The notes under the pieces were generated by a model that saw only the letters and a list, made by a program, of their open reading frames with translations, searched no databases and was not told where the DNA came from. Source: Acidimicrobiaceae bacterium (GTDB lineage: Bacteria; Actinomycetota; Acidimicrobiia; Acidimicrobiales; RAAP-2). From it: a DNA stretch of 38,429 nt. This document shows, in pieces, positions 7,579 through 38,345 of the stretch (positions are counted from its first letter, which is position 1; each line of letters opens with the position of its first letter). The position numbers were made by a program, and so were the translations under genes. The stretch lies in NCBI GenBank assembly GCA_003167415.1, contig PMTF01000015.1, positions 17,575-56,003 on the forward strand, written 5' to 3'.

Positions 7579-7608
7579 GGCTCACATGACGAGGCTGCGA
7601 GGAATCCG

Positions 7609-8712: not shown

Positions 8713-8733
8713 TCACGGGACTCGGGCGCTGGC

Positions 8734-14565: not shown

Positions 14566-14669
14566 GATGTAGTAAGGAAATGATAGGGTTTGGACGTGAA
14601 GACGTTTCAACAATCCCTCAAAAATCCCTCACAAGGGGTGAGCGACCACACGTCGTGGAAGGCGCGACG

Positions 14670-21391: not shown

Positions 21392-22028
21392 CCCAAGCGC
21401 CGCTCTTTTGAGTATTGAACAATGCCTCTTGTGAAATCGACGCCGTAACATCGACGAAAAGTGTTACGCCAGCTCGCTCTGCAGTCGAGACGTACGCCCG
21501 AAGAGCCTTCTCTGTCGCCAAGTCAATGACGTCTCGCATTTCAACAGAGTTGGCAACTTCCGATGTCTGAGGCTTCTTTCGCGGCCGTACGTAGAGCGCA
21601 CCCTTCCGCAATATATCGCCACCTCTTTCTCCTGGAGATTGATAGCCCTTCGCACAAATGTGAGGTACATCGTCAAATTCAGAAACGCTGATGACGGCAA
21701 TCGAAACACCGTTTGAAAGCTTCATTGCGGAGCACTGGAAACGCAGAGGTGGGTCTGCGTATACGGCAAGTCGGTCAGAGAGATTGTCGAAGTTCGTCCA
21801 AGACTCGATCTCGCGTTCGCTGAGCCCAGGAAGCATCGTTGGGATTTTGTCGTCATCGATTCCGATGATCACGTGGCCTCCGTCGCGAAGATTGCCGAGA
21901 CTTAGAGATGCGCGCGCCACCTTGGCAAAAAGGTACGTATCACTTAGCTCACTAGGCCCCTTTATCTCTAACCAGCGAGTCTCATTACCGCTTTGAAGAA
22001 TCTCTTCAATTTCAAAAGGCACGACCAT
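21384..22028 (-). CDS. AlbA_2/Schlafen-type nucleic-acid-binding domain protein
   Basis: A 214-residue protein whose N-terminal ~130 residues match the AlbA_2 (divergent AAA-4/Schlafen-like) domain: ETRWLEIKGPSELSD, then KVARASLSLGNLRDGGHVIIGIDDD, then ISVSEFDDVPHICAKG and GALYVRPRKKPQ. Such domains occur in transcription factors and in antiviral Schlafen-like nucleases. The C-terminal tail is helical, with no winged helix seen, so it is shorter than typical AlbA_2-HTH regulators. It is translationally coupled to the gene ending at 20705. Function in this island is unknown. Confidence 0.82.
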   Translation of the reverse strand: MVVPFEIEEILQSGNETRWLEIKGPSELSDTYLFAKVARASLSLGNLRDGGHVIIGIDDDKIPTMLPGLSEREIESWTNFDNLSDRLAVYADPPLRFQCSAMKLSNGVSIAVISVSEFDDVPHICAKGYQSPGERGGDILRKGALYVRPRKKPQTSEVANSVEMRDVIDLATEKALRAYVSTAERAGVTLFVDVTASISQEALFNTQKSGAWDE

Positions 22029-25152: not shown

Positions 25153-26442
25153 ATGCCCGGGTCTTTTCCTTCGAACTTGGGTGGTCCAACAATAGTGAGC
25201 CATTTCACTCGCATCCCCGCCCACGTCGTGGTCGATGCACGGAACCTTATCGGCATGGCCGCCTCTCTGAGTATGTCAAAGCCAACTCTTACGTTCCCGG
25301 GGTTTCGAGACTTATTGACTCATTACGGATTTGAAATGGTCAAACTGAACGTCGGAATTGGGTTGGCGAGAAATGCGGGCTCAGGAGTTCTGTCTCACAT
25401 ACACACTGATAACTCAAGACTCAGAACCTCACTTCAACGCGACGGGGCATCGATTCTTGAGGGCGAAATTCGGTTCGAGGAGGACAAGGTCAAAGAGAAG
25501 ATGGTCGACGTTAAGTGCGCTTTGAAGGTCGTTGAGATCGCGCGTATGAATGATGAAGAACGGCCAAAAGCAATCGTTCTGTTTTCGCGAGACCTTGATT
25601 TGTTACCTGCTGCGGAGCAAGCCACGGCGCTTGGCGTACCGACTTACATCATGTCGAGCGACGCAGCTTATCTCCGACACCAACATCATTTACTCCTTAC
25701 GCCTGCTTCATACTCGCAGTTGAGCGATGGCGACGCGGACCTTGCGTTTGGAAACACTGATATTGCGAAACTTATTGGTGACCCCGGTCCTCACCTGTGG
25801 ACAGTCGATTCTTCGACCACCCTATTAGGAGTATCTGGCCGTAATCTGACCCACGAATCAGGAATTCGAGGATTCGCGTCGGACGTAGACATCGGCGTGG
25901 CGACCGCTGGTGAAGAATTGACCCTATATATTGCTGACACAATTTTCGACCAAGAGCTCCCAGTTCCCTATTGTACGTCTGCTGACACATTTGACGTTGA
26001 AAGACCGTGGTTAGTAGAAACCGAAGTCGCTCTTAGAAAGGACTCGTCAAAAATCGAGATTGAGCTAAACGGCCAAGTAGTACGAGTCAAGTGTCCGGTT
26101 GGCACAGCGACGCCAGGACAGAGAATTCTCATACGTTGCAAAGGGGGCCTTTACCATCAGCAGGCGGTGGCGCGCCTCATCGGCCCGCTTGACGAAGCCG
26201 ATTCCTCGGCTATTGAGTCAGCACATCTCGAACTGGGGCGTCCCATAGTTGTTCAAGTCGAGACGATTGCAATTGGCGGTAATGCCTTCGTTGCACTGAC
26301 CCCCGACGCACAAAGATATCCGTTAAAGAAAGCACTCGGAGTTAGGCCTCGCTTGGGATATTGGTATGCAGCAGTACCCTCACCGACAGCGGGAGGATCG
26401 TTTGAACTTGAACTCGTCTCCACTGAATTGTTGCAGCGTTAA
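25153..26442 (+). CDS. NYN-domain (PIN-like) putative RNase with C-terminal beta-rich region
   Basis: A 429-residue protein (413-415 residues if it starts at the GTG at 25195). The N-terminal half resembles a NYN/PIN-like nuclease: HVVVDARNLIGMA with the first acidic residue, VDVKCALKVVEIA, IVLFSRDLDLLPAAEQATALG with the DxD pair, then VPTYIMSSDAAYLR. NYN domains are metal-dependent RNases. The C-terminal ~200 residues have beta-strand patterns (RILIRCKGGLYHQQAVARLIG, VVQVETIAIGGNAFVALT), perhaps OB-like nucleic-acid-binding domains. I do not recognise the full architecture. It follows a terminator-like hairpin and stands alone. Confidence 0.75.
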   Translation: MPGSFPSNLGGPTIVSHFTRIPAHVVVDARNLIGMAASLSMSKPTLTFPGFRDLLTHYGFEMVKLNVGIGLARNAGSGVLSHIHTDNSRLRTSLQRDGASILEGEIRFEEDKVKEKMVDVKCALKVVEIARMNDEERPKAIVLFSRDLDLLPAAEQATALGVPTYIMSSDAAYLRHQHHLLLTPASYSQLSDGDADLAFGNTDIAKLIGDPGPHLWTVDSSTTLLGVSGRNLTHESGIRGFASDVDIGVATAGEELTLYIADTIFDQELPVPYCTSADTFDVERPWLVETEVALRKDSSKIEIELNGQVVRVKCPVGTATPGQRILIRCKGGLYHQQAVARLIGPLDEADSSAIESAHLELGRPIVVQVETIAIGGNAFVALTPDAQRYPLKKALGVRPRLGYWYAAVPSPTAGGSFELELVSTELLQR

Positions 26443-27088: not shown

Positions 27089-27442
27089 ATGACTCAAAAC
27101 CCGTCGGAAAGACAAACAGAGATGGTGACGATACCAGAAGTTCTACCGATTACAATTCCCACTCGGCTTGAATTGATCCGCTCGGTGATAGTTGCCCTTG
27201 CCGAAGTTCGCGGCTGTTCGAGCGTGGAACTAGAAGGCGAAATGCACAAAGCGGGTGGAGAACTGGAGATGGAGTCTCCTGAGGCCGTCGCGGTCCTCTC
27301 CAAGGTCGAGCGTCGATACGGCGGACGAAGGCTCGCGAAGGTTGAGGACCTTGAACCTGAGGAATTGACTTCCGTAACAGTGCTCGCTGGTCTCATCCAC
27401 AGCAGATGGCCTGCCGCAGATGACGACCGGAGTAACGAGTAA
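27089..27442 (+). CDS. acyl-carrier-protein-like protein
   Basis: A 117-residue protein whose residues ~25-110 resemble an acyl carrier protein four-helix bundle. Helix 1 is LIRSVIVALAEVRG. The attachment region AGGELEMESPEAVAVLSKVE has Ser63 in ESP where DSL is usual, and the protein ends TSVTVLAGLIHSRW, like the ACP final helix. If Ser63 is phosphopantetheinylated, it would carry an acyl or aminoacyl group. This is strongly supported by the AcpS-type transferase encoded two genes downstream. The first gene of the operon, it overlaps the next by one base. ATG 27122 is an alternative start. Assignment is by pattern and context. Confidence 0.7.
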   Translation: MTQNPSERQTEMVTIPEVLPITIPTRLELIRSVIVALAEVRGCSSVELEGEMHKAGGELEMESPEAVAVLSKVERRYGGRRLAKVEDLEPEELTSVTVLAGLIHSRWPAADDDRSNE

Positions 27443-28257
27443 TGGCCATCTTCGTGTCCGAGACGAACATTTCTGTGGCCTGGGTCACCGGATTGACCAA
27501 ACTCATTGAGGCCGGTGGAGAGGCGGTAAATCTCATAGTTGCAATCGCAAAGCCGCTCGTCGAGATTCAGGAAGTACGGTCAACGTTGGACGAGTTCATT
27601 GCCGCTCGTCGAATGGGCAACCGTAAGTCAATGGAAAAGGTGTCGACCGTTGCAAATACTCTCTTCCCTCAGTCCTGGTATCGAGCGAACCTCGGAGAGG
27701 CGGCGGCAGATCACTTGTACGAGCTGGAACGAGAGACCCGTTCCGCAAGTCATAGGACGGCTAAACATGGCACTTATTTCGAACGGATGGTGGCGTGGCC
27801 AGATCCCGAAAAGGGGCCGGTCAATCAACTATCGCGCGCCATAGAGCGACTTAGTGCGGCCCGTGAAAGAGGACACCAGCGTGGCAACCAGTACGAAGTT
27901 GGTGTCACGGGTCCGATGGAGGAGGGAATTGCGGCACCAATTGTCGTTCCCGGCCACGACAACTCGACCAGAGGCTTTCCTTGCTTGAGTCATATCAGTT
28001 TTAGCCTTCACAAGGGTGAACTACATTTGGCTGCGTTGTATCGCAGCCACGACTACGTGAGTAGGGCGTACGGGAACTACATCGGTCTCGGTCGCGTACT
28101 TTCATTTGTCGGAAACGAGTCCGGCTGGCCAATCGGCGAAGTGACATGCATTTCGTCGTCGGCTACGTCTGAGTTCTCGCGGGGCGGCAATTTTGGAAAG
28201 GGAGCCGTAGAGGATTTGCTTACGAAGTGTGTTGCTTTGGTTGAGTCAGAGCAATGA
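27442..28257 (+). CDS. divergent thymidylate-synthase-like protein
   Basis: A 271-residue protein. The C-terminal half follows the thymidylate synthase core: FPCLSHISFSLH with the nucleophile-position Cys181, GELHLAALYRSHDYVSRAYG with R201-S202 and D204, then N212 and LGRVLSFVG. Family members methylate or hydroxymethylate a pyrimidine nucleotide at C5 (TS, dUMP/dCMP hydroxymethylases, MilA). The later HiY motif of TS is absent here, and the N-terminus is short and unlike TS, so the substrate or reaction may differ. It is coupled on both sides (1-bp overlap with the ACP gene, 4-bp overlap with acpS), which suggests that the three proteins act together. Confidence 0.7.
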   Translation: MAIFVSETNISVAWVTGLTKLIEAGGEAVNLIVAIAKPLVEIQEVRSTLDEFIAARRMGNRKSMEKVSTVANTLFPQSWYRANLGEAAADHLYELERETRSASHRTAKHGTYFERMVAWPDPEKGPVNQLSRAIERLSAARERGHQRGNQYEVGVTGPMEEGIAAPIVVPGHDNSTRGFPCLSHISFSLHKGELHLAALYRSHDYVSRAYGNYIGLGRVLSFVGNESGWPIGEVTCISSSATSEFSRGGNFGKGAVEDLLTKCVALVESEQ

Positions 28258-28727
28258 ATCACGGCGCACTATTTGATTTGCTGGACGATGCGGTTGCACT
28301 GTCTTTGAACCATCTCACTCTTAAGGTAGGAATCGATCGTGTGGAGATCGAGACCTTTACCCAACTCCTCGCCTCGGGCGGTGAAGAATTTCTTTCAGAG
28401 GTTTATAGATCCGACGAGATCAATTACTGCTCGGGCAGGATTGAGCACTTGGCGGCGCGACTTTGTGCAAAGGAAGCCACGCTAAAAGTTCTTGGGACGG
28501 GAATTCGTGGCATCGCCCTCGCAGAGGTCGAAGTCACACACGCAGCTAACGGACAGCCGGACATATCACTCGTTGGGCGCGCGAGCGACCGAGCATCGGC
28601 ACTTCACGTCGTTTCAATTGCCGTCAGTATGACGCATACAAAATTCGCAGCGGAGGCGGTAGTTGTTGCACTGCTCGATGCACGAATAGACGGATTCAAC
28701 TTTGAAAGGAGTGTTAATAATGGGTGA
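28254..28727 (+). CDS. AcpS-type 4'-phosphopantetheinyl transferase
   Basis: A 157-residue member of the AcpS (holo-ACP synthase) family. The metal-binding motif is VGIDRVEI (D28), and the second is LAARLCAKEATLKVLGTG with K73, E74 and K78. The usual later segments are ALAEVEVTHAANGQP and VSMTHTKFAAEAVVVA. It transfers phosphopantetheine from CoA to a carrier-protein serine; the obvious client is the ACP-like protein of this operon. A dedicated AcpS beside its ACP on a mobile island is unusual. Its ATG overlaps the TS-like gene's stop by 4 bp. Confidence 0.88.
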   Translation: MNHGALFDLLDDAVALSLNHLTLKVGIDRVEIETFTQLLASGGEEFLSEVYRSDEINYCSGRIEHLAARLCAKEATLKVLGTGIRGIALAEVEVTHAANGQPDISLVGRASDRASALHVVSIAVSMTHTKFAAEAVVVALLDARIDGFNFERSVNNG

Positions 28728-29124
28728 TGCTGATTCAGAACTGTTGCCTGATCACAAAAACCTGACCGACGAAGAGTACGTGCGCATGGGCGTGCGCCTG
28801 CGTGAGGCTCGAGATTACCTCGATCTCTCTCAAGAGGCGGTGGCTGATGCACTGAAGATTCCCAGAGCGTCCGTGTCAGCGATCGAGAGCGGTAAACGGA
28901 AAGTAAGCAGTCTTGAGTTACGAGATCTAGCCCGCTTGTACCGCCGTCCGTTGGACACATTTTACGACCCACATAATGATTCAGTTCCACCCGAAAGCGA
29001 AGCTGACCAGGCTCTCTATCGAACCGTTCGAGAGTTGAGCGAGGACGATAAAGAGCAGGTGCTTAAGTTTGCCGAATTCATCAAGACCTCGGGTCAAGCA
29101 CCGGCAAGACCGAAGGCTCGCTGA
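28720..29124 (+). CDS. XRE-family HTH regulator
   Basis: A 134-residue protein with an HTH at ~25-80: MGVRLREARDYLDLSQEAVA, then LKIPRASVSAIESGKRKVSS, then LRDLARLYRRPLDTFYD. A charged C-terminal helix (ELSEDDKEQVLKFAEFIKTS) probably mediates dimerisation. AAGGAG lies eight bases before the ATG at 28720, which decides the start over the longer frame. It is followed by an ImmA/IrrE gene, the usual XRE/ImmA pair. It probably represses the operon promoter and is cleaved or relieved by the peptidase, as in ICEBs1 ImmR/ImmA (inference). Confidence 0.88.
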   Translation: MGDADSELLPDHKNLTDEEYVRMGVRLREARDYLDLSQEAVADALKIPRASVSAIESGKRKVSSLELRDLARLYRRPLDTFYDPHNDSVPPESEADQALYRTVRELSEDDKEQVLKFAEFIKTSGQAPARPKAR

Positions 29125-29151
29125 GTTGTTCACTCGTCCTACTTTCAAGAA

Positions 29152-30177
29152 ATGCCTGCTTTGAGTCCGCGATCGGCGTACGAACGAGCACGTCTTCGGG
29201 GTACCAAGGCCGCACTGGATGAGCACAATCGTCTTGGTCTGCAGTTGCGCGAACGAATCGACATCTTCGAAGTCATTGAAGACCAACGACTCTGGTTATT
29301 CAGCCAACCGATGCGTGACCTCTACGGGGCGTACAAGCGGTCGGGGACTTCTGGCGGTATCCTACTCAACTCACAACATCCTGCAACTACCCAGCGTTTC
29401 ACTGCGTCACATGAATACGGCCACCACATCCTCGGGCATGAAGCAAGCGTCGATGAGGAAGAACAGATGTTTCAAAGCCAGAAGTTAATTGAGGTTGAGG
29501 CCCAAGCATTCGCTGGCGAGTTTCTGATGCCGCTTCAACTCGTCAATTACACGTTGCGCACGATGGGATTCGATCGTCAGAATCCGCAGCTTTCTCCCTT
29601 GGACATTTACAAGGTCGCCCTCGAGTTAGGCGTGAGCTACCGGGCGGCCGTGACGCAGTTGACGAATCACAAAAAAATCAGTCGTCTGCTCGGACGGCGA
29701 TTCGCGAAAATTAGTCCCCTTAAGATAAAGACCTTCGTTGGGGGCGTTAAGCCGGAGTTCTCCTGGGCCGACGTATGGATTCTCGATCCGACGCAAGAGG
29801 GGAGAGAATTCTCTCCGAGTTTGCGAGACGAGATTCACGTCGAGCTGCCTGAAACTCCCTCGACTGGATATGTCTGGGAGATTGTTGATCCGGCGGCGGA
29901 GGTTCTCACGTATGTGGGTGAATCTTTCGAACCGCAGGGAGGCGAAGAGTCCATCGGCTCCTCTGGTGAACGGCACTTCCTCTTCCGAGTTATCACCGCT
30001 GGCCGGGGACAACTTCGTTTGGAAATGCGCCGACCGTGGCTGGAAGATGTGCAGCCCCGAGTCCGATTCGAAGCAACCATAAGCTCGGTACCCCGACTTT
30101 CCGGCGAGTCGGGTTCAGGCCTCAGCCATTCCCAAAGAGAAGCCTTGCTGGAAGAGGTTGGTGCGACGCAGCTATGA
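29152..30177 (+). CDS. ImmA/IrrE metallopeptidase fused to a chagasin-like cysteine-protease-inhibitor domain
   Basis: A 341-residue fusion. Residues ~30-185 are an ImmA/IrrE (M78) zinc peptidase: HEYGH at 87-91 and the third-ligand helix with E116 in VEAQAFAGEFLMP. Residues ~205-312 resemble a chagasin (inhibitor family I42) domain with its three inhibitory loops: TPSTGYVWEI (235-244), GSSGERHFLF (269-278) and RRPWLED (293-299). Chagasins inhibit papain-type cysteine proteases. The next gene, overlapping by 4 bp, encodes such a protease. I infer that this protein holds the protease inactive, while its peptidase domain responds to a signal and may cut the XRE regulator or itself. Confidence 0.85.
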   Translation: MPALSPRSAYERARLRGTKAALDEHNRLGLQLRERIDIFEVIEDQRLWLFSQPMRDLYGAYKRSGTSGGILLNSQHPATTQRFTASHEYGHHILGHEASVDEEEQMFQSQKLIEVEAQAFAGEFLMPLQLVNYTLRTMGFDRQNPQLSPLDIYKVALELGVSYRAAVTQLTNHKKISRLLGRRFAKISPLKIKTFVGGVKPEFSWADVWILDPTQEGREFSPSLRDEIHVELPETPSTGYVWEIVDPAAEVLTYVGESFEPQGGEESIGSSGERHFLFRVITAGRGQLRLEMRRPWLEDVQPRVRFEATISSVPRLSGESGSGLSHSQREALLEEVGATQL

Positions 30178-30884
30178 CGGTAACAGTTGATCTTCGTCCA
30201 AGGCTTCCGCCCGTCCGTGACCAAGGAGATCGTGGGACCTGCTTGGCCTTCGCAGTTACTGCTCTTCATGAAATCCTTCGCGCTGGTGGTGCGCCGGCGG
30301 GACAGGATCTCGCCGAGGAGGCGTTGTACTGGGGCTGCAAGCAGATTGATGGCAATTGGACCACTGGAACTTCATTTCAGTCTGCCTCTGTGGCGCTGCC
30401 CCGATGGGGTCAACCGATCGAAACAATGTGGCCGTACGACCCCAACCGACCAGATGGTGCCCCTTACCACCCTCCGATCACGCCGGGTGGCGTCGATTGG
30501 TTTCAAGCGGGACTCCGTTCCGAAGCGGCGACGTCGACCAAAGTTCGTACTCTCCTTGCTGGCAATTTGCCGGTTGCCCTTGGCATCACGATCTATCCAT
30601 CCTTCTACCGGCCCAGTACCTCGGGCCATATCGCTGACCCGCGACCGGGCGAACCGCAAAAGGGTCGTCACGCGGTCGTCGCCGTTGGCTACGACGCCGG
30701 CCGCATCTTGGTTCGCAATTCGTGGGGAAACTATTGGGGACTTAGCGGTTACGGATGGATTAGTAATTCGTACGTCGACAGCCATGCCAGTGATGTGTGG
30801 ACTGTAGTAGTGAGCGCCGGGACGTTGACCCCTCCTACTCCACAGCTGCACGCCTTAGCGATAAACACATATGGAACAGGATGA
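30174..30884 (+). CDS. papain-like (C1 family) cysteine protease without signal peptide
   Basis: A 236-residue C1A-fold peptidase with all catalytic elements: oxyanion Gln17 and nucleophile Cys23 in VRDQGDRGTCLAFA, His166 in KGRHAVVAVGYD and Asn182 in LVRNSWGNYWG. There is no signal peptide and no pro-domain, so it would be made active in the cytoplasm, where uncontrolled activity would be harmful. Control may come from the chagasin-like domain encoded just upstream, with which it is translationally coupled (ATGA overlap). An upstream in-frame start at 30036 lies inside the previous gene and is rejected. It could be an effector or a processing enzyme for the ACP/TS-like proteins. Confidence 0.9.
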   Translation: MTVTVDLRPRLPPVRDQGDRGTCLAFAVTALHEILRAGGAPAGQDLAEEALYWGCKQIDGNWTTGTSFQSASVALPRWGQPIETMWPYDPNRPDGAPYHPPITPGGVDWFQAGLRSEAATSTKVRTLLAGNLPVALGITIYPSFYRPSTSGHIADPRPGEPQKGRHAVVAVGYDAGRILVRNSWGNYWGLSGYGWISNSYVDSHASDVWTVVVSAGTLTPPTPQLHALAINTYGTG

Positions 30885-30987
30885 ATTTCGAGAAATTGTC
30901 ATCATGGCTGATTCCTGTGAACTGATCAACTTTTAGAAGATAGTCTGATCGAATGTTGTCGCTTTTTGAATTAGTCGGCATCGGGCG

Positions 30988-31701
30988 GTGACCGGCTTTT
31001 GGAGCACCGAAACCTTACGGATAAGGTCGAACGATCTGATTAGCCCTTTCAGTGAGGAACGCATACGCAATTGCGCATACGAGTTGAGTCTTGGTAATGA
31101 GGTCTTCATTACCGGTGAGGAGAGTGAGACCAAGCGCGTCCTTAATAATCGAGGTGACCAGATCTCGATACGTCCTGGGCAATTCGCCGACTTGCTCACA
31201 GAAGAAGTTGTAAAAATCCCTGCCAACGCGATTGGCTTAATCTCGATGAAGTTCGGGATCAAGAAGAGTGGTCTGATAAACGTTTCGGGATTTCATGTCG
31301 ATCCCGGCTACAAGGGAAAGCTGCTCTTTTCTGTTTACAATGCTGGGCCGTCCCCAACGGTCTTGTCCCGTGGCGATCCAGTTTTCCTGCTTTGGTATTG
31401 TGATTTGGATCGTGAAACAGAAGATCTCTATCTGAATAGTCCGCAACGAGATTCGTTAACGTCAGACGATGTGTCCCAATTATTGGGTGACGTTTGGTCT
31501 CCTGAGGCCCTCGCCTCCAAAGTGGCCGCGCTGGAAAGACAGATGAATCTTTGGACGTGGCTTGGCCGCGCAGTGCTGGTTGCGTTGATTTCTGGCCTCG
31601 TAGGTCTCGGGATTGGTTGGGGCGTCCATATCGATAGGCCGACCTCGAATATAATTCCTACAACGACAACGACCGTTCCCGTATCGTCTAACTCTCATTG
31701 A
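30988..31701 (+). CDS. membrane-anchored dCTP deaminase/dUTPase-fold protein, probably non-catalytic
   Basis: A 237-residue protein. Residues ~10-142 follow the Dcd/Dut fold: CAYELSLGNEVF, RPGQFADLLTEEVVKIP, GLISMKFGIKKSGLINVSG, VDPGYKGKLLFSVYNAG and LSRGDPVFLLWYCDL. In dCTP deaminases the strand after PGYxG carries the catalytic Glu; here it is LLFSVYN, so the Glu is missing, and the SSxxR loop is also changed. A transmembrane helix at ~193-213 and a short Thr-rich tail follow. It may bind pyrimidine nucleotides as a sensor at the membrane. GTG 30988 is the first start after an in-frame stop. Confidence 0.8.
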   Translation: MTGFWSTETLRIRSNDLISPFSEERIRNCAYELSLGNEVFITGEESETKRVLNNRGDQISIRPGQFADLLTEEVVKIPANAIGLISMKFGIKKSGLINVSGFHVDPGYKGKLLFSVYNAGPSPTVLSRGDPVFLLWYCDLDRETEDLYLNSPQRDSLTSDDVSQLLGDVWSPEALASKVAALERQMNLWTWLGRAVLVALISGLVGLGIGWGVHIDRPTSNIIPTTTTTVPVSSNSH

Positions 31702-32014
31702 TTCGTAAATGTGCGCAACTCACCTTGCGATGATGCCAACTAACTCGGACGGTTTCACGGTTTATCAACACATTGTCAAAAGAATGTTGCCCGTGTTACC
31801 AGCTAGATTTCCGAGAGTTGCGTCGTAAAAATGTGATTCCACATGGATTAGTGATCATTAGCCACCACCCTTGTCCGTTAACGGGCGCTATGCGACGCTA
31901 AGGTTTCGTCCTGTCACGTCTTTCGAAGTGCCCGCTCGAGCTGTCATAAATTGAGGCTAGGGGTAGCCTGTAACACATCCATGGAGCCACACCAGTACGA
32001 GGAAGGAGTCGGCC
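31702..32014. promoter_or_regulatory. palindrome-rich intergenic region upstream of the nucleotide-modification genes
   Basis: This 313-bp stretch has no gene but several short palindromes: ATGTG-ATTC-CACAT (31831-31844), TGATCA (31852-31857), CCGTTAACGG (31875-31884) and AGGCTA-GGGG-TAGCCT (31954-31969). The last lies ~45 bp before the next start codon. Operators, a structured leader or a transfer origin are all possible. No clear -35/-10 pair was found. Confidence 0.5.
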
Positions 32015-32623
32015 TTGTCCCAGGTGACACTCGCCCTCAACCCCGGAGTTTCAGTGGTCCTCGAAGGACTCGACGGCACAGGCAAGTCGACGCAGTTGAG
32101 CATTCTCAAGAGCGCACTTGACCCTGGTTCGGTCGTTCTTGCACATATGCCTGGCGGCTTCACACAGTTCACTCGGCGGGTAAGCGAGGCTCTCGAGGGC
32201 GACGGCGAGGGGCCTACTTCTGGCCTGGCCCAGCAACTCGCACATCTTGCTTGCCACGCGGAGTCAATTGCACTTCTCGTGGCGGCTATTAATTCTGGAG
32301 CACTTGTGCTTGATCGGTGGTGGTGGTCGGCTCTCGCTTATGGTTGGTACGGTGGCCCGGTGAGAGGATCTGGTCTCTCCGAGAAGAGCTTCAGAGAACT
32401 AATAGACGTAATTTGGGCGCCGGTTGTGGCGTCAGTAGTCTTTGTGTTCTTGGAACCGCACCAAGTTGATAGTAATAATCTCGCGGGCGTCGAAGTCGGT
32501 TATCGTACGCTCCTCGATCAGTATCCCGATCTTTCGGTGGTGGTGTCCGGTGGTTCTCCGTCAGATACCCATGACTTTATTGTTCGAACACTTATTCAAC
32601 GTGGCCTCGCTACCCGGGTCTAA
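32015..32623 (+). CDS. thymidylate-kinase-like nucleoside monophosphate kinase
   Basis: A 202-residue P-loop kinase of the dTMP kinase family: EGLDGTGKST (17-26) is the family's Walker A, and LVLDRWWWSALAYGWYGG holds the DR(Y) motif at D100-R101. The region VGYRTLLDQYPDLSVVV matches the late TMPK helix-strand. The lid Arg residues are not obvious, so the substrate could be a modified pyrimidine monophosphate. Start is a TTG with GAAGGAG upstream. It lies 16 bp before a thymidylate synthase homologue. TS-type enzyme plus TMPK is the pairing seen in phages that make hypermodified pyrimidines. Confidence 0.85.
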   Translation: MSQVTLALNPGVSVVLEGLDGTGKSTQLSILKSALDPGSVVLAHMPGGFTQFTRRVSEALEGDGEGPTSGLAQQLAHLACHAESIALLVAAINSGALVLDRWWWSALAYGWYGGPVRGSGLSEKSFRELIDVIWAPVVASVVFVFLEPHQVDSNNLAGVEVGYRTLLDQYPDLSVVVSGGSPSDTHDFIVRTLIQRGLATRV

Positions 32624-32639
32624 GGCAAAGTGACTTGGA

Positions 32640-33635
32640 ATGCCCGCATACAGAAATGTCGAGGCTGCTTTTCTAGGTGAGTTGCGTGCTTTGGTCGGGG
32701 ATGGGACGGATATTGAGGTACGGGGACAGCTTACGCGTGAGATAACTGCCCGAACTGTCCAGGTTGACAACATCCGTGAACGCTATTTGGTTGTCCCCAA
32801 TCGACATAACAACGTGTTCGCATCAATTGCGGAGAGTTTGTGGGTCATTGCAGGAAGAAATGACCTTGGTTACCTTAGTACCTACCTACCTCGCGCTAGT
32901 GAGTTCTCAGACGACGGCATTACTTGGCGCGCCGCTTACGGTCCAAGACTTCGCAATTGGAACGGCGTGGACCAACTGGCCGAAGTCGTGTCGATTCTTC
33001 AGGCCGATCTCACATCACGTCGTGCCGTGGCCGTTCTTTATGACCCCGATCGCGATTTCGTGGAGAGCAATGACATCCCCTGCAATAACTGGCTTCACTT
33101 TATTGTTAGGCATGGGCGAGTCGACCTCCACGTCGTTGCTCGAAGCACCGATATTTGGTGGGGATTTTCGGGAATCAATGCATTCGAATGGACCCTTCTC
33201 TTGGAGATGGTGTCTCACTGGCTCGGCCAAGAGCCCGGACATCTCGTGTTCTTCACTTCTTCAATGCACATCTATGAACGCCATTTTGAACAGGCCGCAC
33301 AGATCTTGAGACATCAAAGCTCCGAAGTCTCCGAGGATGATGGCATTAACCAATTTCCAGCCTTCGCGACGCACTGGGAGAACTTCGCCGCTGAGATCAC
33401 TGAGTGGATGCGAGTCGAACAAGGCATGCGCTCTGGGCAGGAACTTGATTATCTCAAATGCTCTCTGACCGATCCGCTGTTGACTTCCTACGCCCAAATG
33501 ATTGACCTCTTCTGGATGTTCAAGAGGCGTGAGGAGAGTGGAACGATGAAGCAAAAACTCGTCGCCATTTCGAATGCAACCCTGAGAAAGGCAGCGGTAG
33601 AATTTCTAAGTCGGCCTCGAGGCCAATTTCATTAG
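32640..33635 (+). CDS. thymidylate synthase-family protein (possible dUMP hydroxymethylase)
   Basis: A 331-residue ThyA-fold protein with most active-site features: FASIAESLWVIAGRND (Glu/Trp region), AYGPRLRNW, phosphate-binding R127-R128, nucleophile C148 in NDIPCNNWLHF, VARSTDIWWGFSGINAFEW with R168, S169, D171 and N180, and MHIYERHF (HxY). N180 at the dUMP-specific Asn position favours uracil nucleotides over cytosine. One residue is inserted between D171 and N180 relative to E. coli ThyA, and the C-terminal ~110 residues diverge. It could make dTMP or 5-hydroxymethyl-dUMP; the neighbours favour the latter (inference). Confidence 0.88.
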   Translation: MPAYRNVEAAFLGELRALVGDGTDIEVRGQLTREITARTVQVDNIRERYLVVPNRHNNVFASIAESLWVIAGRNDLGYLSTYLPRASEFSDDGITWRAAYGPRLRNWNGVDQLAEVVSILQADLTSRRAVAVLYDPDRDFVESNDIPCNNWLHFIVRHGRVDLHVVARSTDIWWGFSGINAFEWTLLLEMVSHWLGQEPGHLVFFTSSMHIYERHFEQAAQILRHQSSEVSEDDGINQFPAFATHWENFAAEITEWMRVEQGMRSGQELDYLKCSLTDPLLTSYAQMIDLFWMFKRREESGTMKQKLVAISNATLRKAAVEFLSRPRGQFH

Positions 33636-33654
33636 ATCCTCAACGATTGGTGAT

Positions 33655-34689
33655 TCATAATCGCACGAGCGCGTGTTCCAATTGAACGTTGGCATCACTG
33701 TTGATTCCCCACTTCGGTGGGAAGAATGGTGCAGGCGAGGATCCATGTTGAAAGAATTGCTGCTTGATTCGAGTCCGATTTCCGGATCCAGGTATTTCAG
33801 GGTGCATAACCCGCGCGTACTTGTCGGTTTCGCAGAAGAGGTTCTGGCAATCGATGAGCGTAAGCGAACGGCCAAAAAGGTCATGGAAGAAAAGATCGTA
33901 GTGATCAAATTGATCCACCTGATTGTCTACCATCCAACGGATCACATCTTCATGCGACAAGCCGTCCAGGTCCAGGAAGCATTTGGCGATTCCGCTGCGG
34001 GCGCCTGGTCCGGGCACCACGAAGTCGTTCTCATCAAAATCAAGAAGCTTTGTGTAGTTGAAGTCGATTGCGAGTTGATATGCGAGGAACGGCCCTAATG
34101 AAGGGTAGGACTGAATCGTCTCGTAGACGGCTTGCAGGGACTTTGCAGATGCCAAGTCGCGATCAAGTCCGGATTTAAGCATGTGTTCGATCAGCATTAG
34201 ATGGTTCCGGTGCTTCCTCTTTGCACCAAATGGTGGCGGAGGAACAATGTAAGCCGCAGAATAGACACGTTCGTCGCGCATGAGCATCTGATCCAGGACA
34301 AGGCCGAACGCTTCTACGTCGAATGATTCTGTGGTGATTTCTCCGAACGCGTCATTAAGTGCGCGCCACGTCGACGGCTTGTTGAAGAATCGGAATAGCA
34401 AGACTCGAAGCACGATATTCTCAGGCGTCTGCGGTCCGTCGTATGCGATGCGGATTAAATCCTGCGAGACGCGGTCAGCTGCTCGGTACGCGTTAGTGAA
34501 TCGGTATTGAGAGATAACTGGATCTATGGTCCAAGGTGGCGAGTCACCCGCCAATCTCGCGTGATAGACGCGCTGCCGCTCTTGTGCGAAGTACCAGTAC
34601 GATTGAAGGACCCCAGAAGCCACGACATTGTGATGACCAATTCTGAATCGTTCCACTTTCATGGCAAGCCCACGAAGATTCTCTGTCAT
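33655..34689 (-). CDS. putative DNA base hypermodification protein (5-hmdU DNA kinase helical-domain / thymine pyrophosphorylase family)
   Basis: A 344-residue, mainly helical protein. Its N-terminal half follows the family of the 5-hmdU DNA kinase helical domain and the alpha-glutamyl/putrescinyl-thymine pyrophosphorylases: FAQERQRVYHARLAG, PPWTIDPVISQYRFTNAYRA and ADRVSQDLIRIA. Later conserved segments include FLAYQLAIDFNYTKLL and GPGARSGIAKCFLDL. In hypermodifying phages these proteins act on 5-hydroxymethyluracil in DNA. There is no separate P-loop kinase domain here. It is convergent with the TS-family gene (19 bp between stops) and downstream of the relaxase gene on the same strand. Confidence 0.8.
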   Translation of the reverse strand: MTENLRGLAMKVERFRIGHHNVVASGVLQSYWYFAQERQRVYHARLAGDSPPWTIDPVISQYRFTNAYRAADRVSQDLIRIAYDGPQTPENIVLRVLLFRFFNKPSTWRALNDAFGEITTESFDVEAFGLVLDQMLMRDERVYSAAYIVPPPPFGAKRKHRNHLMLIEHMLKSGLDRDLASAKSLQAVYETIQSYPSLGPFLAYQLAIDFNYTKLLDFDENDFVVPGPGARSGIAKCFLDLDGLSHEDVIRWMVDNQVDQFDHYDLFFHDLFGRSLTLIDCQNLFCETDKYARVMHPEIPGSGNRTRIKQQFFQHGSSPAPFFPPKWGINSDANVQLEHALVRL

Positions 34690-34772: not shown

Positions 34773-37700
34773 TTATAGATCGAGTGCGAAGTCAGTGATT
34801 GTTGGCTCTACGAGGGAATCGCCGGCAAATACATACGCCGTCGGGGTCAGCGCGGCCTCGAAGGCGGTGAGCGCGCGGGCTCGTTGGGCGGCACTGAGCA
34901 AGAGACTGCGGTGAGTTTCTTGTTCGTGGCCAACAATTGATTGTTCGAGGTTCGTCGAAGAGTTGTCAATGCCCCAGCGCTCTAGGTAGGCGGCGCCAGT
35001 GGCAACTTCTAGTACCCACCGTTCGGAGAGTTCCGCCGCCGGGGGAGCTTCGCCGAAGTTCCGCACCCAGCTGTCACCGTGTTCAATGGCGATTGTGGCG
35101 AGTTCGCGTGCACGCTGCTCGATGGCGGCGGCTAGATCGTTGAGTGCGGGCACAATGTCGGGGTCGGTGATTCTTCTCGATCGGGGGAATAGACCGGCTA
35201 CGAGCTGACTTGTCGGTGGATTGGGGTAGCCCACACCGGTCAAGTAGCGACCGATGCGGGAGTGCAGGATGCTAGCGATGTCTGAGGCGTCGCCGAACGA
35301 GCGACCCATTACCAGCAACTGCAGTTCGGTGGAAACATCGAAGCCTCGACTCTCAGCATTTCGTAGAAGTGCGAGAAGTCCTGAGTAGGCGGGGGACGCC
35401 ATAGCTTGGGTGAGCTCGACGTCGCTGAGTCCCGACTGGCTCAGCACCTCATCCCAACGTGGGCCTTCAGCCATTGAGATGATGGTGTCGTACTCGGCGA
35501 CGAGAGCGGCGATGGACTGAGTCTGGGACAGACGGATTATGTCGGTAGCGGACACGTCGGCTCCCTGGTGGCGCAGTACGCTGGCAAGCACTTCGCGAGC
35601 GGTCGGATTTTCGGCAAGACCGTCGTGGCCGGTTGACGGATCGGGGTCGTATTGCGTGTCGACGTAGAGATGGTTGGATTCTGAACCTCGCGTCAAGGCA
35701 ACGTAAAGCACTTCGCGAGTGGTAGTAGGACTCGCGAAGGCATGCGCTGTGTCCACGGTACGCCCTTGGGCGCGATGCGCCGTCGTGGCGTAGGCCAACT
35801 CCACGTTCTCGGCGACGTAACTGGCTGGCAGATTCACCGTGCCGCGTCCACTGAATCGAGTGAGGGTCATAGAACCATCTGCGTGCGTAGCCGAAACGAT
35901 CCACATGTCACCGTTCTTCACCCATCTCGCGCCCGTCGTGATCCGTCGGTCGTTCTCGCGAGTCACCACATGGTCGTTGACGCCAGCCGTCATGGCCCCC
36001 GCAACGTTGACCCCTTCTTCGACGACGACGCCACTGGCGACACGTTCGGCTCGGGCACGAGCGTTGAGTTCGTTGACGGTCGCGGTATCACTGGCCAGCA
36101 TCAACGAGTGCAGGCCACGATCGGTGTCGCTCTTCCACGCCGCGAAGAGGGCATCGAGCATCTCGTCGCGATTTCCGTCCTTGATTCGTCCGTGCGTCGC
36201 GTAAGTCCCAAGAGCGGCGTTGCTACCCCGGCGGACTCCGAGGCTGGCATCCCTTTCCCACGCTGACCTGAAGCGACGAACGTCCGTGAGCGTTGGGGTG
36301 CTATCACCGCGGTCGCGCACGAGGGTGCGAAACATTCCTCCGGCATCAACGCTGGAGAGTTGGCCCCAGTCACCGACGAGAACGACTTTAGCCTTCATGT
36401 CGATTGCGGCTGACGTGAGTTCGTCGAGCGCGAAGGTCGATGCCAGGCTGGCCTCGTCGACTACTACCAGTTGGCCTTTCCGAAAAGTCCAGCGAGCCAG
36501 TACTTCCTCTCGTCGGCGAATTACTTCGTGCAGTCGAGGACTAGTTGCTTGGCCACTACGTTTGATCAACCGCATTTTCTCGCGGAGTTTGTCCAGTTCG
36601 CGAGTTCGTTGGCCGTGCTGTCGGTGCTCGTGGAGCCATTTGGCGAGATTGTCGGTGTCAATGCCCATGTCGTCACCCAGGGCCTGCGCCGCTACCGCCG
36701 ATGGTGCGAGACCGATTACCGAACCGGGACCGTGCTCTAATTCCCATGCGGCGCGCAGTCCCGCCATGGCCGTCGACTTGCCCGTGCCCGCGGGACCCAC
36801 CAGAAGATCGAGGGCGCGGCCCGACGTTGTGATCTTCTCTACGCAGTGGGCCTGGTCGAGCGAGAGCCTGAAGTTCTTGTTGAGGAGTCGTTGCTTGGTC
36901 AATTTCGCCGCCGTGGCGCTTGTGGCCACAGCAGCGTCGAGGCGCTGGCCCGCGTCGAGCAGTCGTGCTTCGGCGTCGAGCAGTGTCCTCGAGGTGTAGA
37001 GCCAGTGACCGGTTGCCTGAAATTTGGAGGTGCCGTCGCTGCGAAGAAGGAAGTGGGGCGTGTGGTGCAAGTTGGGAGTCGTGATAAGCAGCGCCTGTGC
37101 GACGGCGAGGTCGGTGGCTCGAGCGGCGGTGAGAATTCGCTCCGCCGGTTTGGTGAAGCGCACATCCTGCATCTGGCGATAGACCTCGGCTTGGACGTTG
37201 GCGCGAGAGAACGTCGGGCGCTTGGCGCTCACGACGTCGAGGGCCGAGTTGGCGATATCGAGCAGGACGGCGTCATCGAACTCGGCGTTGCTGAAGGCGT
37301 GTACGACCCTGCCACCCAACTCGTGCACCCACGCCATGGGCTCGTCGTCGAGGTATGGTGCGGCCCGAGTTATCCACGCTTTGGTGAGGTCTCCCAAGCC
37401 CAGGCCCGGCTTGGCCCGTCGGGTAGAGAGGGTGGCCGTCTGGCGGAGTTTGAGAACTTCCACGTCGGTGGGAGCGCGGTGGTGATCCACTTCGAACTGG
37501 GCGATGAGGCGATCCTTTGCGCCGACGATGGCGGTCGTGCGTTGAGAGAACTCATCCATAAGACGCGTCGACACGCCGGCCACTTCCCACTTCGGGGCGG
37601 TGCTGGAGCGCCGGGTGTGGGCCGACCAGTCCCAGCCGAGCTCGGCGGTCAGAAGGTCGGAAAGTACGCCCTGGTGCATCTCCGAGAGCATCACCGTTGA

Positions 37701-38345
37701 CGCGAACAACCCCCGACTGTCGAGGGTGCGCCACACGCCGTCACTCTTGGCCTGAGCACGGTTGAGAACAACTACGTGGTCGTGCAGTTGGGGATCGCCG
37801 TCTCGAGAATCGAAGTGGGTGAAACTCGCGGCGACGACGCCAACAATGTCCTCTTCGACGCACCCCTGCTTTCCTGAGCGCGAGTGGAAGACCTTGCGCT
37901 CGGCGTAGGCGAGGACCTCCGCGATCGCTAACTGGTGGCACTCGTAGATCACTTCGCGGGTCTCCCGGTCGGCCAGAGCCCAAGCGGTAGAGACGCTCTT
38001 GGAGGGACTGAACGTCAAGTCGAAACCACCCACGGCCTTCGTGCTCGGAATCCTTCCGAGCACCTCGCCGGTGATCGGATCGGCGCAGTCCTGGAGCATC
38101 CGCTGGAGGTTCTCTGCCGTCACCGACTGCCCGACAGCAACACCCAGACCGTTGTTGAGACCGACGAGTCCGGCGCCGAGAAAGACTCCCGGGGGAGTGC
38201 CAGTTTCGCTGTAGTAGCGAACCAGGTTCGACTTGTCGGTGCCTTCAGGTCCATCGCCCACCGCGATTGATTTGAGCAGGTACTGGTAACCCGCTCCGAT
38301 GCTGAGGCGTCGAATCGTCATCATGTCGGAGGCGCCTGCATGCAA
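34773..38345 (-). CDS. MobF-family conjugative relaxase with C-terminal helicase (TrwC/TraA-like)
   Basis: A 1190-residue relaxase-helicase. The N-terminus has candidate catalytic Tyr residues (GAGYQYLLKSI, Y20/Y22) and the HUH triad: H177 with H188 and H190 in FTHFDSRDGDPQLHDHVV. A superfamily I helicase follows: Walker A VGPAGTGKST (about 512-521), Walker B VVVDEASLAS, VLVGDWGQLSSVDAG, and late motifs TTAHRAQGRTVD and EVLYVALTRGSE. Such proteins nick the transfer origin and unwind the strand during conjugation. The family N-terminus (MTIRRLS) suggests that the ATG at 38324 or 38321 may be the true start. It marks the island as transmissible. Confidence 0.93.
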   Translation of the reverse strand: MHAGASDMMTIRRLSIGAGYQYLLKSIAVGDGPEGTDKSNLVRYYSETGTPPGVFLGAGLVGLNNGLGVAVGQSVTAENLQRMLQDCADPITGEVLGRIPSTKAVGGFDLTFSPSKSVSTAWALADRETREVIYECHQLAIAEVLAYAERKVFHSRSGKQGCVEEDIVGVVAASFTHFDSRDGDPQLHDHVVVLNRAQAKSDGVWRTLDSRGLFASTVMLSEMHQGVLSDLLTAELGWDWSAHTRRSSTAPKWEVAGVSTRLMDEFSQRTTAIVGAKDRLIAQFEVDHHRAPTDVEVLKLRQTATLSTRRAKPGLGLGDLTKAWITRAAPYLDDEPMAWVHELGGRVVHAFSNAEFDDAVLLDIANSALDVVSAKRPTFSRANVQAEVYRQMQDVRFTKPAERILTAARATDLAVAQALLITTPNLHHTPHFLLRSDGTSKFQATGHWLYTSRTLLDAEARLLDAGQRLDAAVATSATAAKLTKQRLLNKNFRLSLDQAHCVEKITTSGRALDLLVGPAGTGKSTAMAGLRAAWELEHGPGSVIGLAPSAVAAQALGDDMGIDTDNLAKWLHEHRQHGQRTRELDKLREKMRLIKRSGQATSPRLHEVIRRREEVLARWTFRKGQLVVVDEASLASTFALDELTSAAIDMKAKVVLVGDWGQLSSVDAGGMFRTLVRDRGDSTPTLTDVRRFRSAWERDASLGVRRGSNAALGTYATHGRIKDGNRDEMLDALFAAWKSDTDRGLHSLMLASDTATVNELNARARAERVASGVVVEEGVNVAGAMTAGVNDHVVTRENDRRITTGARWVKNGDMWIVSATHADGSMTLTRFSGRGTVNLPASYVAENVELAYATTAHRAQGRTVDTAHAFASPTTTREVLYVALTRGSESNHLYVDTQYDPDPSTGHDGLAENPTAREVLASVLRHQGADVSATDIIRLSQTQSIAALVAEYDTIISMAEGPRWDEVLSQSGLSDVELTQAMASPAYSGLLALLRNAESRGFDVSTELQLLVMGRSFGDASDIASILHSRIGRYLTGVGYPNPPTSQLVAGLFPRSRRITDPDIVPALNDLAAAIEQRARELATIAIEHGDSWVRNFGEAPPAAELSERWVLEVATGAAYLERWGIDNSSTNLEQSIVGHEQETHRSLLLSAAQRARALTAFEAALTPTAYVFAGDSLVEPTITDFALDL

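Follow-up and report, generated by a model that had tools for sequence, protein, structure and literature searches.

A ten-gene cluster on an actinobacterial mobile element, with two thymidylate synthase-superfamily proteins and an aGPT-type protein, as a candidate pyrimidine-hypermodification module

The window is the whole stretch of DNA analysed, 38,429 nucleotides of contig PMTF01000015.1 (Acidimicrobiaceae bacterium, assembly GCA_003167415.1). Three adjacent gene classes had been predicted at 32015–34689 (thymidylate kinase-like, TMPK; thymidylate synthase family, TS; 5-hmdU-kinase family), and their placement was borne out by open reading frames of 202, 331 and 344 aa and by matches to PF02223, PF00303 and PF18723. 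Reading this trio as the full module was rejected: it closes a ten-gene cluster (27089–34689; Table 1) and related larger sets were found at other loci, so that the original prediction had missed a second TS, an acyl-carrier-protein (ACP)-like protein, a phosphopantetheinyl transferase (PPTase), a CapH/CapP-like pair, a papain-like protease and a DCD-like protein. Family membership, hydroxymethylase-type residue changes, the lack of a kinase domain in the third protein, gene co-occurrence and the integrase/MobF context, as given below, were read from sequence and structure prediction.

Table 1. Features of the ten-gene cluster (window positions).
Feature	Position	Strand	Evidence
Small acyl-carrier-protein-like protein, 117 aa	27089..27442	+	conserved Ser63; Streptomyces homologue with PF00550
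Second TS-superfamily enzyme ("TS-like"), divergent, 271 aa	27442..28257	+	TIGR03283 partial; predicted fold
Holo-ACP synthase/phosphopantetheinyl transferase	28254..28727	+	PF01648 8.9e-11; NCBIfam TIGR00556 66.3 bits (cut-off 45.35)
XRE-type HTH regulator, CapH-like	28702..29124	+	PF01381 2.4e-11; PADLOC capH 2.6e-12
ImmA/IrrE (M78) metallopeptidase, CapP-like, with chagasin-type I42 inhibitor domain	29152..30177	+	PF06114 2.1e-16; PF09394 1e-17; capP 8.2e-16
Papain-like C1 cysteine peptidase	30174..30884	+	PF00112 2.4e-11
dCTP-deaminase/dUTPase-fold (DCD-like) protein, C-terminal hydrophobic helix	30988..31701	+	PF22769 2.5e-12
Thymidylate-kinase-like P-loop kinase, 202 aa	32015..32623	+	PF02223 37.7 bits; P-loop GLDGTGKS
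TS-family enzyme, hydroxymethylase-like, 331 aa	32640..33635	+	PF00303 3.8e-26; MilA 2.9e-24; residue table
aGPT-Pplase1-type protein (Pfam HMUDK_hel), putative, 344 aa	33655..34689	-	PF18723 343 bits; fold; phage synteny

The TS at 32640 scored 92.2 bits against PF00303 (cut-off 24.3), and residue alignment showed that the features credited to it, Cys148, Asn180 and the HIY motif (His210), had all been named correctly. In E. coli numbering Trp80 is replaced by Ala and His147 by Asn, and the residues of the protein (80A, 83F, 146C, 147N, 166R, 177N, 207H) match the hydroxymethylase-type TS set; the contrast at W80 and H147 was drawn against two non-type TS rows only, E. coli ThyA and the TS homologue on the host chromosome, which has Val and Ile at these positions. 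Six phage TS-family proteins carry Ala or Met at position 80 and Asn at 147, and were matched by BLAST at 117–218 bits versus 62 for E. coli ThyA. "Hydroxymethylase type" is a label assigned to these six in this analysis; they are annotated as hydroxymethylase or either (PhiW-14, LKO4, Montesquieu), as thymidylate synthase (Det7, LuckyBarnes) or as hypothetical (SPO1L1). T4 gp42, which is a genuine dCMP hydroxymethylase, retains W80 and differs from the window TS at 80, 147 and 177, which counts against the residue argument. The nearest solved relative was MilA, the CMP 5-hydroxymethylase of mildiomycin biosynthesis, at 2.9e-24, versus 1.3e-16 for the best thymidylate synthase. All eight NCBIfam models listed stayed below their cut-offs, including the thymidylate synthase equivalogs, the best being TIGR03283 (86.2 bits; cut-off 174.55). 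By these comparisons the protein is a hydroxymethylase-like member of the TS superfamily with predicted activity. In a tree it grouped with the TS of the named actinobacterial loci; the tree had long branches and ten of its 23 inner forks open, and was therefore used for that grouping alone.

The PF02223 match of the TMPK-like protein (cut-off 27) covers profile positions 1–100 of 185 only, which counts against the hypermodification scheme, and its score with the dTMP kinase equivalog TIGR00041 (37.5 bits) was under the cut-off of 83.25.

The 33655 protein covers positions 3–279 of the 281 in PF18723 (HMUDK_hel; cut-off 25 bits). Its earlier identity as a 5-hmdU-kinase-family member follows the Pfam name and was not upheld: the protein consists of the helical domain only, with PF18723 as its sole Pfam match and neither PF18748 nor a P-loop motif. 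PF18748 (5-hmdU kinase) was absent from Pfam scans of all ten cluster proteins, which counts against the scheme at the point of leaving-group installation. A third gene encoding a kinase was rejected on these grounds, together with the separate kinase gene of phage LKO4 and the best fold match. An AF2 model (pLDDT 84.9) was compared by VIA-align; the best match was the glycinyltransferase gp46 of PaMx11 (8z2n; Z 10.6, rmsd 3.8, 224 aligned), moderate for a helical model, followed by queuine-salvage DUF2419 structures (Z 8.9–9.6) and then mostly DNA glycosylases (Z 5.4–7.6). Plain Foldseek found no PDB structure at E≤0.001, and a PDB sequence search with the protein likewise gave no match; viral models of the PF18723 family matched well. 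Phage synteny and, moderately, the predicted fold point to a putative aGPT-Pplase1-type group transferase. Proteins with PF18723 only should not be called kinases, a misleading name corrected here.

Ser63 of the ACP-like protein, the one position invariant across 14 aligned sequences (14/14), is a possible phosphopantetheine site. The window protein had no Pfam match up to E 1; a Streptomyces homologue (6.9e-08 with the family's own HMM), annotated as acyl carrier protein, matched PF00550 (PP-binding) over cut-off at 1.2e-07, and matches of the family profile to ACPs in the PDB were weak (best E 0.21). The neighbouring TS-like protein had no Pfam match; NCBIfam TIGR03283 matched its C-terminal part at 3.5e-12, under the model cut-off. 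Its AF2 model (pLDDT 83.1) aligned by VIA-align with MilA at Z 17.3 and with ThyA at about 15. Equivalents of Tyr94, Cys146, Arg166, Ser167, Asp169 and Asn177 are retained; those of Arg21, Glu58, Arg126/127, His207 and Tyr209 are missing.

The HTH and M78 neighbours both match PADLOC models and form a CapH/CapP-like pair. Of those cluster proteins that were run against PADLOC, none matched a CBASS cyclase. The I42 domain was present in 15 of 22 M78 family members scanned, that of the window included. For the C1 peptidase, which has the Q-x5-C, His and Asn motifs, the ATG at 30174 was chosen as start (4-base overlap with the previous stop); the ORF lists give GTG 30036, and the PF00112 scan ran from 30123. 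Residues 195–213 of the DCD-like protein have a mean hydropathy of 2.15, and this C-terminal helix is probably a transmembrane anchor. When the protein was aligned to E. coli Dcd, the catalytic deaminase glutamate, Glu138 of the E. coli enzyme, was replaced by Ser; four relatives have Ser (two) or Ala (two).

When the three-gene set was surveyed elsewhere, 15 of 20 loci had both a TS and a TMPK homologue close to the PF18723 gene. These loci were fetched with the window's own protein, served to build the HMMs and are biased to near relatives (L003/L004 and L005/L006 are almost identical). In an evenly drawn phylum sample (396 genomes) PF18723 was found in six and the pair in two of these (the window and L065), being absent from four of the five other genomes. 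In all six the PF18723 gene lay among nucleotide-handling or immune-type genes. The grouping of TS, TMPK and PF18723 genes exceeds chance. TS and TMPK are optional: four of the 20 named relatives carry MazG-MazG_C instead of TS, and L021 has neither TS nor TMPK. In twelve of the 20, the aGPT-TS-TMPK set precedes genes for a zinc-ribbon protein, ThsB-TIR and either SLATT (seven) or TPR-S with TIR (five). Neighbours in relatives were ThsB-TIR, SLATT (SLATT_3/SLATT_1), TPR-S and SLOG cluster 2; scans of 30 window proteins turned up neither TIR nor SLATT. TS-like, HTH and M78 genes occurred together at all 21 TS-like loci (40 loci tabulated), and aGPT was present at every one of the eight genome loci other than the window in the TS-like survey. 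That TS-like always travels with aGPT was rejected, since three plasmid loci (L086–L088) had no aGPT match, and all three of these carry a gene annotated as uracil-DNA glycosylase there (the Pfam test for UDG covered L087, that for MazG_C covered L087 and L088, and L086 was covered by an HMM built in this analysis). An E. coli plasmid (L084) carries a metallophosphoesterase, a protein with a weak TS match, MazG and TS, with no aGPT match. Related clusters were found in several phyla, carried by plasmids, mobile elements or viral contigs.

A location in a bacterial island, as had been proposed, agrees with the neighbouring integrase and MobF relaxase. Conjugation-like ORFs lie downstream (judged by eye), and the element would be moved by conjugative transfer. 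No exact repeat of at least 14 bases of the tRNA-Val region occurs elsewhere in the 96 kb examined of the 207-kb contig, and so no second att end lies there. The host genome has its own ThyX and a further TS homologue, together with a Tmk that scores 136 bits; the island genes are therefore not needed for dTMP.

We tentatively favour the cluster as a mobile, probably infection- or damage-inducible pyrimidine-hypermodification module, most likely for defence against phages or other elements, with a product on DNA, a nucleotide or a signal. Substrates, products, regulation, transfer and defence we infer as follows. The TS at 32640 would convert dUMP into 5-hydroxymethyl-dUMP, which the TMPK-like kinase would phosphorylate, and the aGPT-type protein, acting on DNA or nucleotide, would exchange the activated 5-methylene substituent for an amine-bearing group. 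The second TS, ACP-like protein and PPTase may contribute an additional group or step. The CapH/CapP-like pair would keep the cluster silent until stress, and the chagasin domain may hold the papain-like protease in check. The hypermodification idea stood in so far as the hydroxymethylase-like TS, the TMPK-like kinase and a family known from phage hypermodification are present, and failed in that the third protein is no 5-hmdU kinase. Further points against the scheme are that TS and TMPK are optional in relatives, that plasmid loci L086–L088 show no aGPT match, that neither TIR nor SLATT turned up in the 30 scanned window proteins, and that the fold match to gp46 is moderate. The capH/capP matches and the ThsB-TIR, SLATT, TPR-S and SLOG neighbours in relatives were counted as immune context and probably speak for defence. 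In a more specific version, which we consider unlikely, a carrier-protein-dependent nucleobase hypermodification immune system would operate: the second TS would form a reactive 5-methylene pyrimidine that is passed to an ACP-held group or the phosphopantetheine thiol, aGPT (uracil-DNA glycosylase in sister systems) would complete or remove the mark, and the CapH/CapP-like switch and chagasin-restrained protease would exert control.

A soluble modified nucleotide, serving as poison for phage polymerases or as messenger for TIR, SLATT, TPR-S, SLOG or membrane effectors while DNA is never deliberately modified, is possible though doubtful. It would suit the ThsB-TIR, SLATT_3/SLATT_1, TPR-S and SLOG cluster 2 genes adjoining relatives, the nucleotide-handling folds of MazG-MazG_C and the DCD-like protein, and the hydrophobic C-terminal helix and lost deaminase glutamate of the latter, as a sensor-effector might have; however, the aGPT model matches best the fold of a DNA-acting glycinyltransferase and, further down the ranking, those of DNA glycosylases, and TIR and SLATT were not found among the 30 window proteins scanned. 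The element might instead modify its own or host DNA against restriction, like hypermodified phages. The adjoining MobF relaxase and the conjugation-like ORFs seen by eye downstream would fit this, as would the like role credited to these enzyme classes in M6-like phages (passages of PMC9476957 and PMC6449724); such self-protection is nevertheless rather unlikely, as host replication would have to tolerate or use hmdUTP, no 5-hmdU kinase was found among the ten cluster proteins and the regulators resemble the CapH/CapP defence type.

MilA as best solved relative, with a dedicated ACP-like protein and PPTase, could also indicate a small nucleoside natural-product pathway (MilA-like hydroxymethylase, carrier protein and PPTase) yielding an antibiotic or toxin. 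We regard this as improbable: no ligase, condensation or export family is among the matches of the ten cluster proteins, and the clusters, which carry defence-type regulators, are spread over plasmids, mobile elements and viral contigs from several phyla. Least probable of the uses considered, and rejected, is ordinary thymidylate supply or nucleotide salvage for the element; the TS and TMPK families fit it, but the host already holds ThyX, Tmk and another TS homologue, the TS has lost W80 and H147, the TMPK-like protein lies far under the dTMP kinase cut-off, and the partner gene encodes aGPT, no dTMP enzyme.

Thymine hypermodification is familiar as a strategy of phages. If the defensive hypermodification reading is right, bacteria make unusual pyrimidines for conflict by a recurrent mobile module with two TS-fold proteins, a carrier-like protein, a PPTase and immune-type regulators; the function of genes annotated "nucleotide kinase domain-containing" (PF18723) becomes open to direct tests, and there would be a testable reason for TS, MazG-MazG_C and aGPT genes beside TIR, SLATT and SLOG genes.

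Among known systems, CBASS CapH/CapP resembles the window pair in its adjacent HTH and M78 proteins and differs in that the window M78 protein carries a chagasin domain. Thoeris-like TIR/SLATT loci have their TIR genes in relatives only, and the window cluster, with no TIR among the scanned proteins, is not Thoeris. The PaMx11 gp46 5-PmdU glycinyltransferase (PDB 8z2n) is the best structural match of the 33655 protein but has 8% identity. No description of an operon with ACP, PPTase, second TS and chagasin was found in the literature searched, which lay outside subscription journals and supplements. DefensePredictor (2026; PMC13092281) reports, in its text, thymidylate synthase and 5-hydroxymethyluracil kinase domains among newly validated E. 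coli phage-defence domains; its Fig. 3C legend names TS, dNMPk, 5hmdUk and NMAD, and its predicted systems include aGPT-Pplase, MazG, MazG-C and dUTPase domains. Phosphopantetheinyl, acyl carrier protein and chagasin have 0 occurrences in its main text, and Fig. 6F may include a sister system. These E. coli systems share the enzyme classes of the window, a likeness drawn from text and legends (PMC13092281). The M6-like phage cassettes (SN1, LKO4) likewise combine a TS-family hydroxymethylase with a PF18723 protein in the aGPT-Pplase1 slot, with nucleotide kinase and Nmad5 adjoining, and passages of PMC9476957 and PMC6449724 credit these enzyme classes with protecting DNA against restriction. 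The phages differ by a separate 5-hmdU DNA kinase gene beside the aGPT gene (PF18748 in LKO4), and SN1 also by radical SAM and PLP enzymes, whereas the window has the TMPK-like kinase, second TS, ACP-like protein, PPTase and protease regulators.

The TMPK-like, TS and aGPT genes form the end of a ten-gene cluster; their ORFs and Pfam families were as the original prediction had described them (32015-34689; ORF calls, Pfam), and the Cys148, Asn180 and His210-Ile-Tyr that it assigned to the TS were correct by residue alignment. Nine genes lie on the + strand, most of them overlapping or almost touching; clear gaps precede the DCD-like gene (103 bases) and the TMPK-like gene (313 bases). The aGPT gene is convergent on them. 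The island carrying the cluster is probably an ICE: it adjoins tRNA-Val and carries a tyrosine integrase and a MobF relaxase, VirB4- and TraG-like conjugation ORFs (named by eye) follow downstream of the window. G+C was 0.59-0.65 up to the tRNA region versus 0.50-0.57 over 15427-36426 (3-kb steps). A second att site was not found in the 96 kb of contig searched. The SIR2-like, Schlafen and NYN entries of the table are further candidate defence genes, and the second HTH+M78 protein and its neighbour look, by eye, like a toxin-antitoxin pair.

Features of the window, related loci and the host genome
Feature	Sequence	Positions	Strand
TnpB/IS605 OrfB-like gene (PF07282, PF01385), in flank	Window	3621-5021	-
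tRNA-Val	Window	14489-14565	
Tyrosine integrase	Window	14580-15857	
Second HTH+M78 protein (375 aa; PF01381, PF06114), then 153-aa ORF, PIN-like by eye	Window	16847-18432	-
Schlafen AlbA_2 domain protein, same island	Window	21384-22028	-
SIR2-like protein (PF13289), same island	Window	22828-24795	+
Protein with NYN match below Pfam cut-off, same island	Window	25153-26442	+
Nine cluster genes	Window	27089-33635	+
M78-chagasin protein and adjacent papain-like peptidase	Window	29152-30884	+
DCD-like protein	Window	30988-31701	+
TS	Window	32640-33635	+
aGPT	Window	34689 to 33655	-
MobF relaxase	Window	34773-38345	
DNA-methyltransferase-like ORF, then possible restriction enzyme ORF (by eye)	L089, same contig, downstream of window	5684-8187	
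TS, two glycosyltransferases and PF18723 protein, adjacent	L022, Brevibacterium phage LuckyBarnes	3822-7837	
Gene order: TIR protein, hypothetical gene, aGPT, radical SAM protein	L082, Parabacteroides plasmid	5847-8937	
Cluster of metallophosphoesterase, protein with weak TS match, MazG and TS	L084, E. coli	3918-6849	
Hydroxymethylase-type TS and neighbours	L085, Apilactobacillus plasmid	2092-6056	
Gene annotated uracil-DNA glycosylase	L086, plasmid	7680-8381	
Gene annotated uracil-DNA glycosylase	L087, plasmid	7729-8433	
Gene annotated uracil-DNA glycosylase	L088, plasmid	7780-8463	
Adjacent pair of ThyX matches, each within a 536-aa open frame; also another TS homologue on the chromosome	G000, host genome	C29:7464-8726 and C21:161099-161491	

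Judged by its sequence, the TS resembles hydroxymethylases. Among solved structures the CMP 5-hydroxymethylase MilA was its best match (2.9e-24; best thymidylate synthase, 1.3e-16), and it fell below the cut-off of 8/8 NCBIfam thymidylate-synthase models listed but above the broad Pfam cut-off. Relative to E. coli ThyA, Trp80 is replaced by Ala and His147 by Asn; Arg21, Glu58, Tyr94, Arg126, Arg127, Cys146, Arg166, Ser167, Asp169, Asn177, His207 and Tyr209 are retained. Ala or Met at 80 together with Asn at 147 was found in 6/6 phage TS-family sequences (SPO1L1, PhiW-14, Det7, LKO4, LuckyBarnes and Montesquieu), the contrast being formed by two other TS rows only. A further limit of the comparison is that gp42 of T4, a dCMP hydroxymethylase, retains Trp80. 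Calling these six "hydroxymethylase type" is our own assignment, as record labels vary: deoxyuridylate hydroxymethyltransferase (PhiW-14), either activity (LKO4, Montesquieu), thymidylate synthase (Det7, LuckyBarnes) and hypothetical (SPO1L1). SPO1-type phages carry 5-hmdU. In ThyA lacking Trp80, the 5-methylene intermediate is diverted to outside nucleophiles. The TS of L085 (37.8% to the window TS) has as neighbours a gene annotated deoxynucleoside-phosphate N-hydrolase, a hypothetical gene and a D-Ala-D-Ala ligase.

The third protein, placed originally in the 5-hmdU-kinase family, is not a kinase: PF18723 spans its whole core, no other Pfam family matched, and a motif check of the sequence found no P-loop. 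The best viral-model match was a '5-hmdU DNA kinase' of SP10 (637 residues), the window protein corresponding to only part of its length, and several rows were named '5-hmdU DNA kinase helical domain'; aGPT clade 1 (ranks 7 and 9) and amino acid:DNA transferase (ranks 11 and 12, E > 0.001) appeared lower. Homologues in phage Montesquieu and Morrigan records are labelled aGPT-Pplase clade 1 or aGPT-Pplase1. An AlphaFold2 model (15 sequences, pLDDT 84.9) gave no significant PDB match by plain Foldseek; in VIA-align against PDB chains, 8z2n, the PaMx11 5-PmdU glycinyltransferase gp46, came top (Z 10.6, rmsd 3.8, 224 aligned; a Z near 10 is only moderate for such a helical model), followed by DUF2419 queuine-salvage enzymes (Z 8.9-9.6) and then mostly DNA glycosylases. 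The protein is assigned to the aGPT type on a moderate fold match and, for the remainder, on synteny and family names.

The model of the protein at 27442 has a TS fold, the second in the cluster, with Z 17.3 against MilA and about 15 against many ThyA. The active-site Cys and Asn are invariant across a 20-member TS-like alignment; the window protein lacks His207/Tyr209 and the Arg residues that bind phosphate. It is preceded by an ACP-like protein, in which Ser63 is the one invariant residue in 14 sequences (a Streptomyces homologue passed the PP-binding cut-off of Pfam, the window protein did not), and followed by a holo-ACP synthase (Pfam, NCBIfam). By sequence match, the HTH protein of the cluster is CapH-like and its M78 protein CapP-like. 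A chagasin domain on the M78 protein is present in 15/22 family members, including that of the window, and the next gene encodes a papain-like peptidase in which the catalytic motifs are present. Chagasins inhibit this peptidase class, and such a protease-inhibitor relay would be of interest in itself. The DCD-like protein lacks the deaminase Glu, and its C-terminus is a hydrophobic helix; 4/4 aligned relatives (L021, L075, L079, L081) have Ser or Ala in place of the Glu, and similar tails by eye.

For recurrence, 40 loci were tabulated by HMMs (E <= 1e-4): 20 named loci retrieved in a single search by the window aGPT protein, five from a PF18723 survey (396 genomes; the sixth match was the window), eight from a TS-like survey (395 genomes) and seven IMG/VR contigs. 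The named loci nearest to the window were mostly actinobacterial, which makes an actinobacterial host likely. Three locus types were distinguished: type I (12/20 named loci) with aGPT, TS-TMPK, a zinc-ribbon protein, ThsB-TIR, then SLATT or TPR-S plus TIR; type II with aGPT, ACP, TS-like, PPTase, HTH, M78, C1 and either MazG-MazG_C or DCD/TS/TMPK, often with at least one missing; and type III with aGPT, SLOG cluster 2 and TIRs. The window cluster belongs to type II, with TS, TMPK and aGPT genes at its end that are type I-like: its aGPT shares 73% identity with the aGPT of a type I locus (L002), and in a tree its TS clusters with those of type I loci.

TS plus TMPK occurred in 15/20 named, 1/5 PF18723-survey, 0/8 TS-like-survey and 0/7 IMG/VR loci; the HMMs derive from the window and these same named loci, so matches in the latter are partly by construction, and L075 had both genes by tblastn, its TMPK being missed in the HMM table. 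TS-like, HTH and M78 were found together in 21/21 loci having TS-like. The TS-like survey matched 12/395 genomes: the host genome (with a second, weak match to its own chromosomal TS), eight clear and three short weak (E 3e-5 or worse). Among the clear ones, G573 matched in pieces, a further contig end (L077) bearing only a partial TS-like gene. aGPT was found in 8/8 opened loci of this survey, and alone in 4/7 IMG/VR contigs. TS-like occurred in 24/72,556 plasmid records, 15 of the 24 conjugative, and in 0/50,697 phage records. Plasmid loci of Rhizobium, Streptomyces and Sinorhizobium carry, taken between them, the same set under NCBI annotation (acyl carrier protein, holo-ACP synthase, ImmA/IrrE, C1 peptidase, deoxycytidine triphosphate deaminase, thymidylate synthase, and 'nucleotide kinase domain' or 'putative DNA base hypermodification protein'). 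L086-L088, three of the 24 TS-like plasmid loci, gave no aGPT match and have in its place, beside TS-like, C1, M78, HTH and MazG-MazG_C, a gene annotated uracil-DNA glycosylase (Pfam check covering L087); the swappable partner may therefore be a base- or nucleoside-acting enzyme. The L084 stretch had some match in 88/5426 E. coli genomes and at least 80% of its length in four.

The most economical reading is that the TS would hydroxymethylate, the TMPK-like protein phosphorylate the product and the aGPT protein transfer a group, under control of the CapH/CapP-like pair and for defence. Its weak links are the missing 5-hmdU kinase and the place of the ACP and the second TS, and the reading as a whole is therefore held tentatively, at somewhat less than an even chance. 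In view of these same gaps, action of the enzymes on the nucleotide pool, or production of a signal, is retained as a less likely alternative. Ordinary dTMP supply is not what the cluster is needed for, because the host has ThyX, Tmk (136 bits) and another TS homologue.

That TS and 5-hmdU-kinase-named genes serve in defence is an idea already in print, since DefensePredictor (PMC13092281) lists both domains among those for which it newly validates a role in phage defence. TS, dNMPk, 5hmdUk and NMAD stand in a row in the legend of its Fig. 3C, possibly as one system; among its predicted systems are some with aGPT-Pplase, MazG, MazG-C and dUTPase, and it credits Burroughs 2015 with predicting several such domains. 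An ACP/PPTase/second-TS/chagasin architecture did not turn up in the literature searched, which lay outside subscription journals and supplements. In phage LKO4, PF18748, PF18723 and Nmad5 are three neighbouring genes (Pfam), and the 5-hmdU DNA kinase proper is PF18748, a gene separate from PF18723; for the M6-like phage SN1, a nucleotide kinase, aGPT-Pplase1 and Nmad5 are given as neighbours in PMC9476957.
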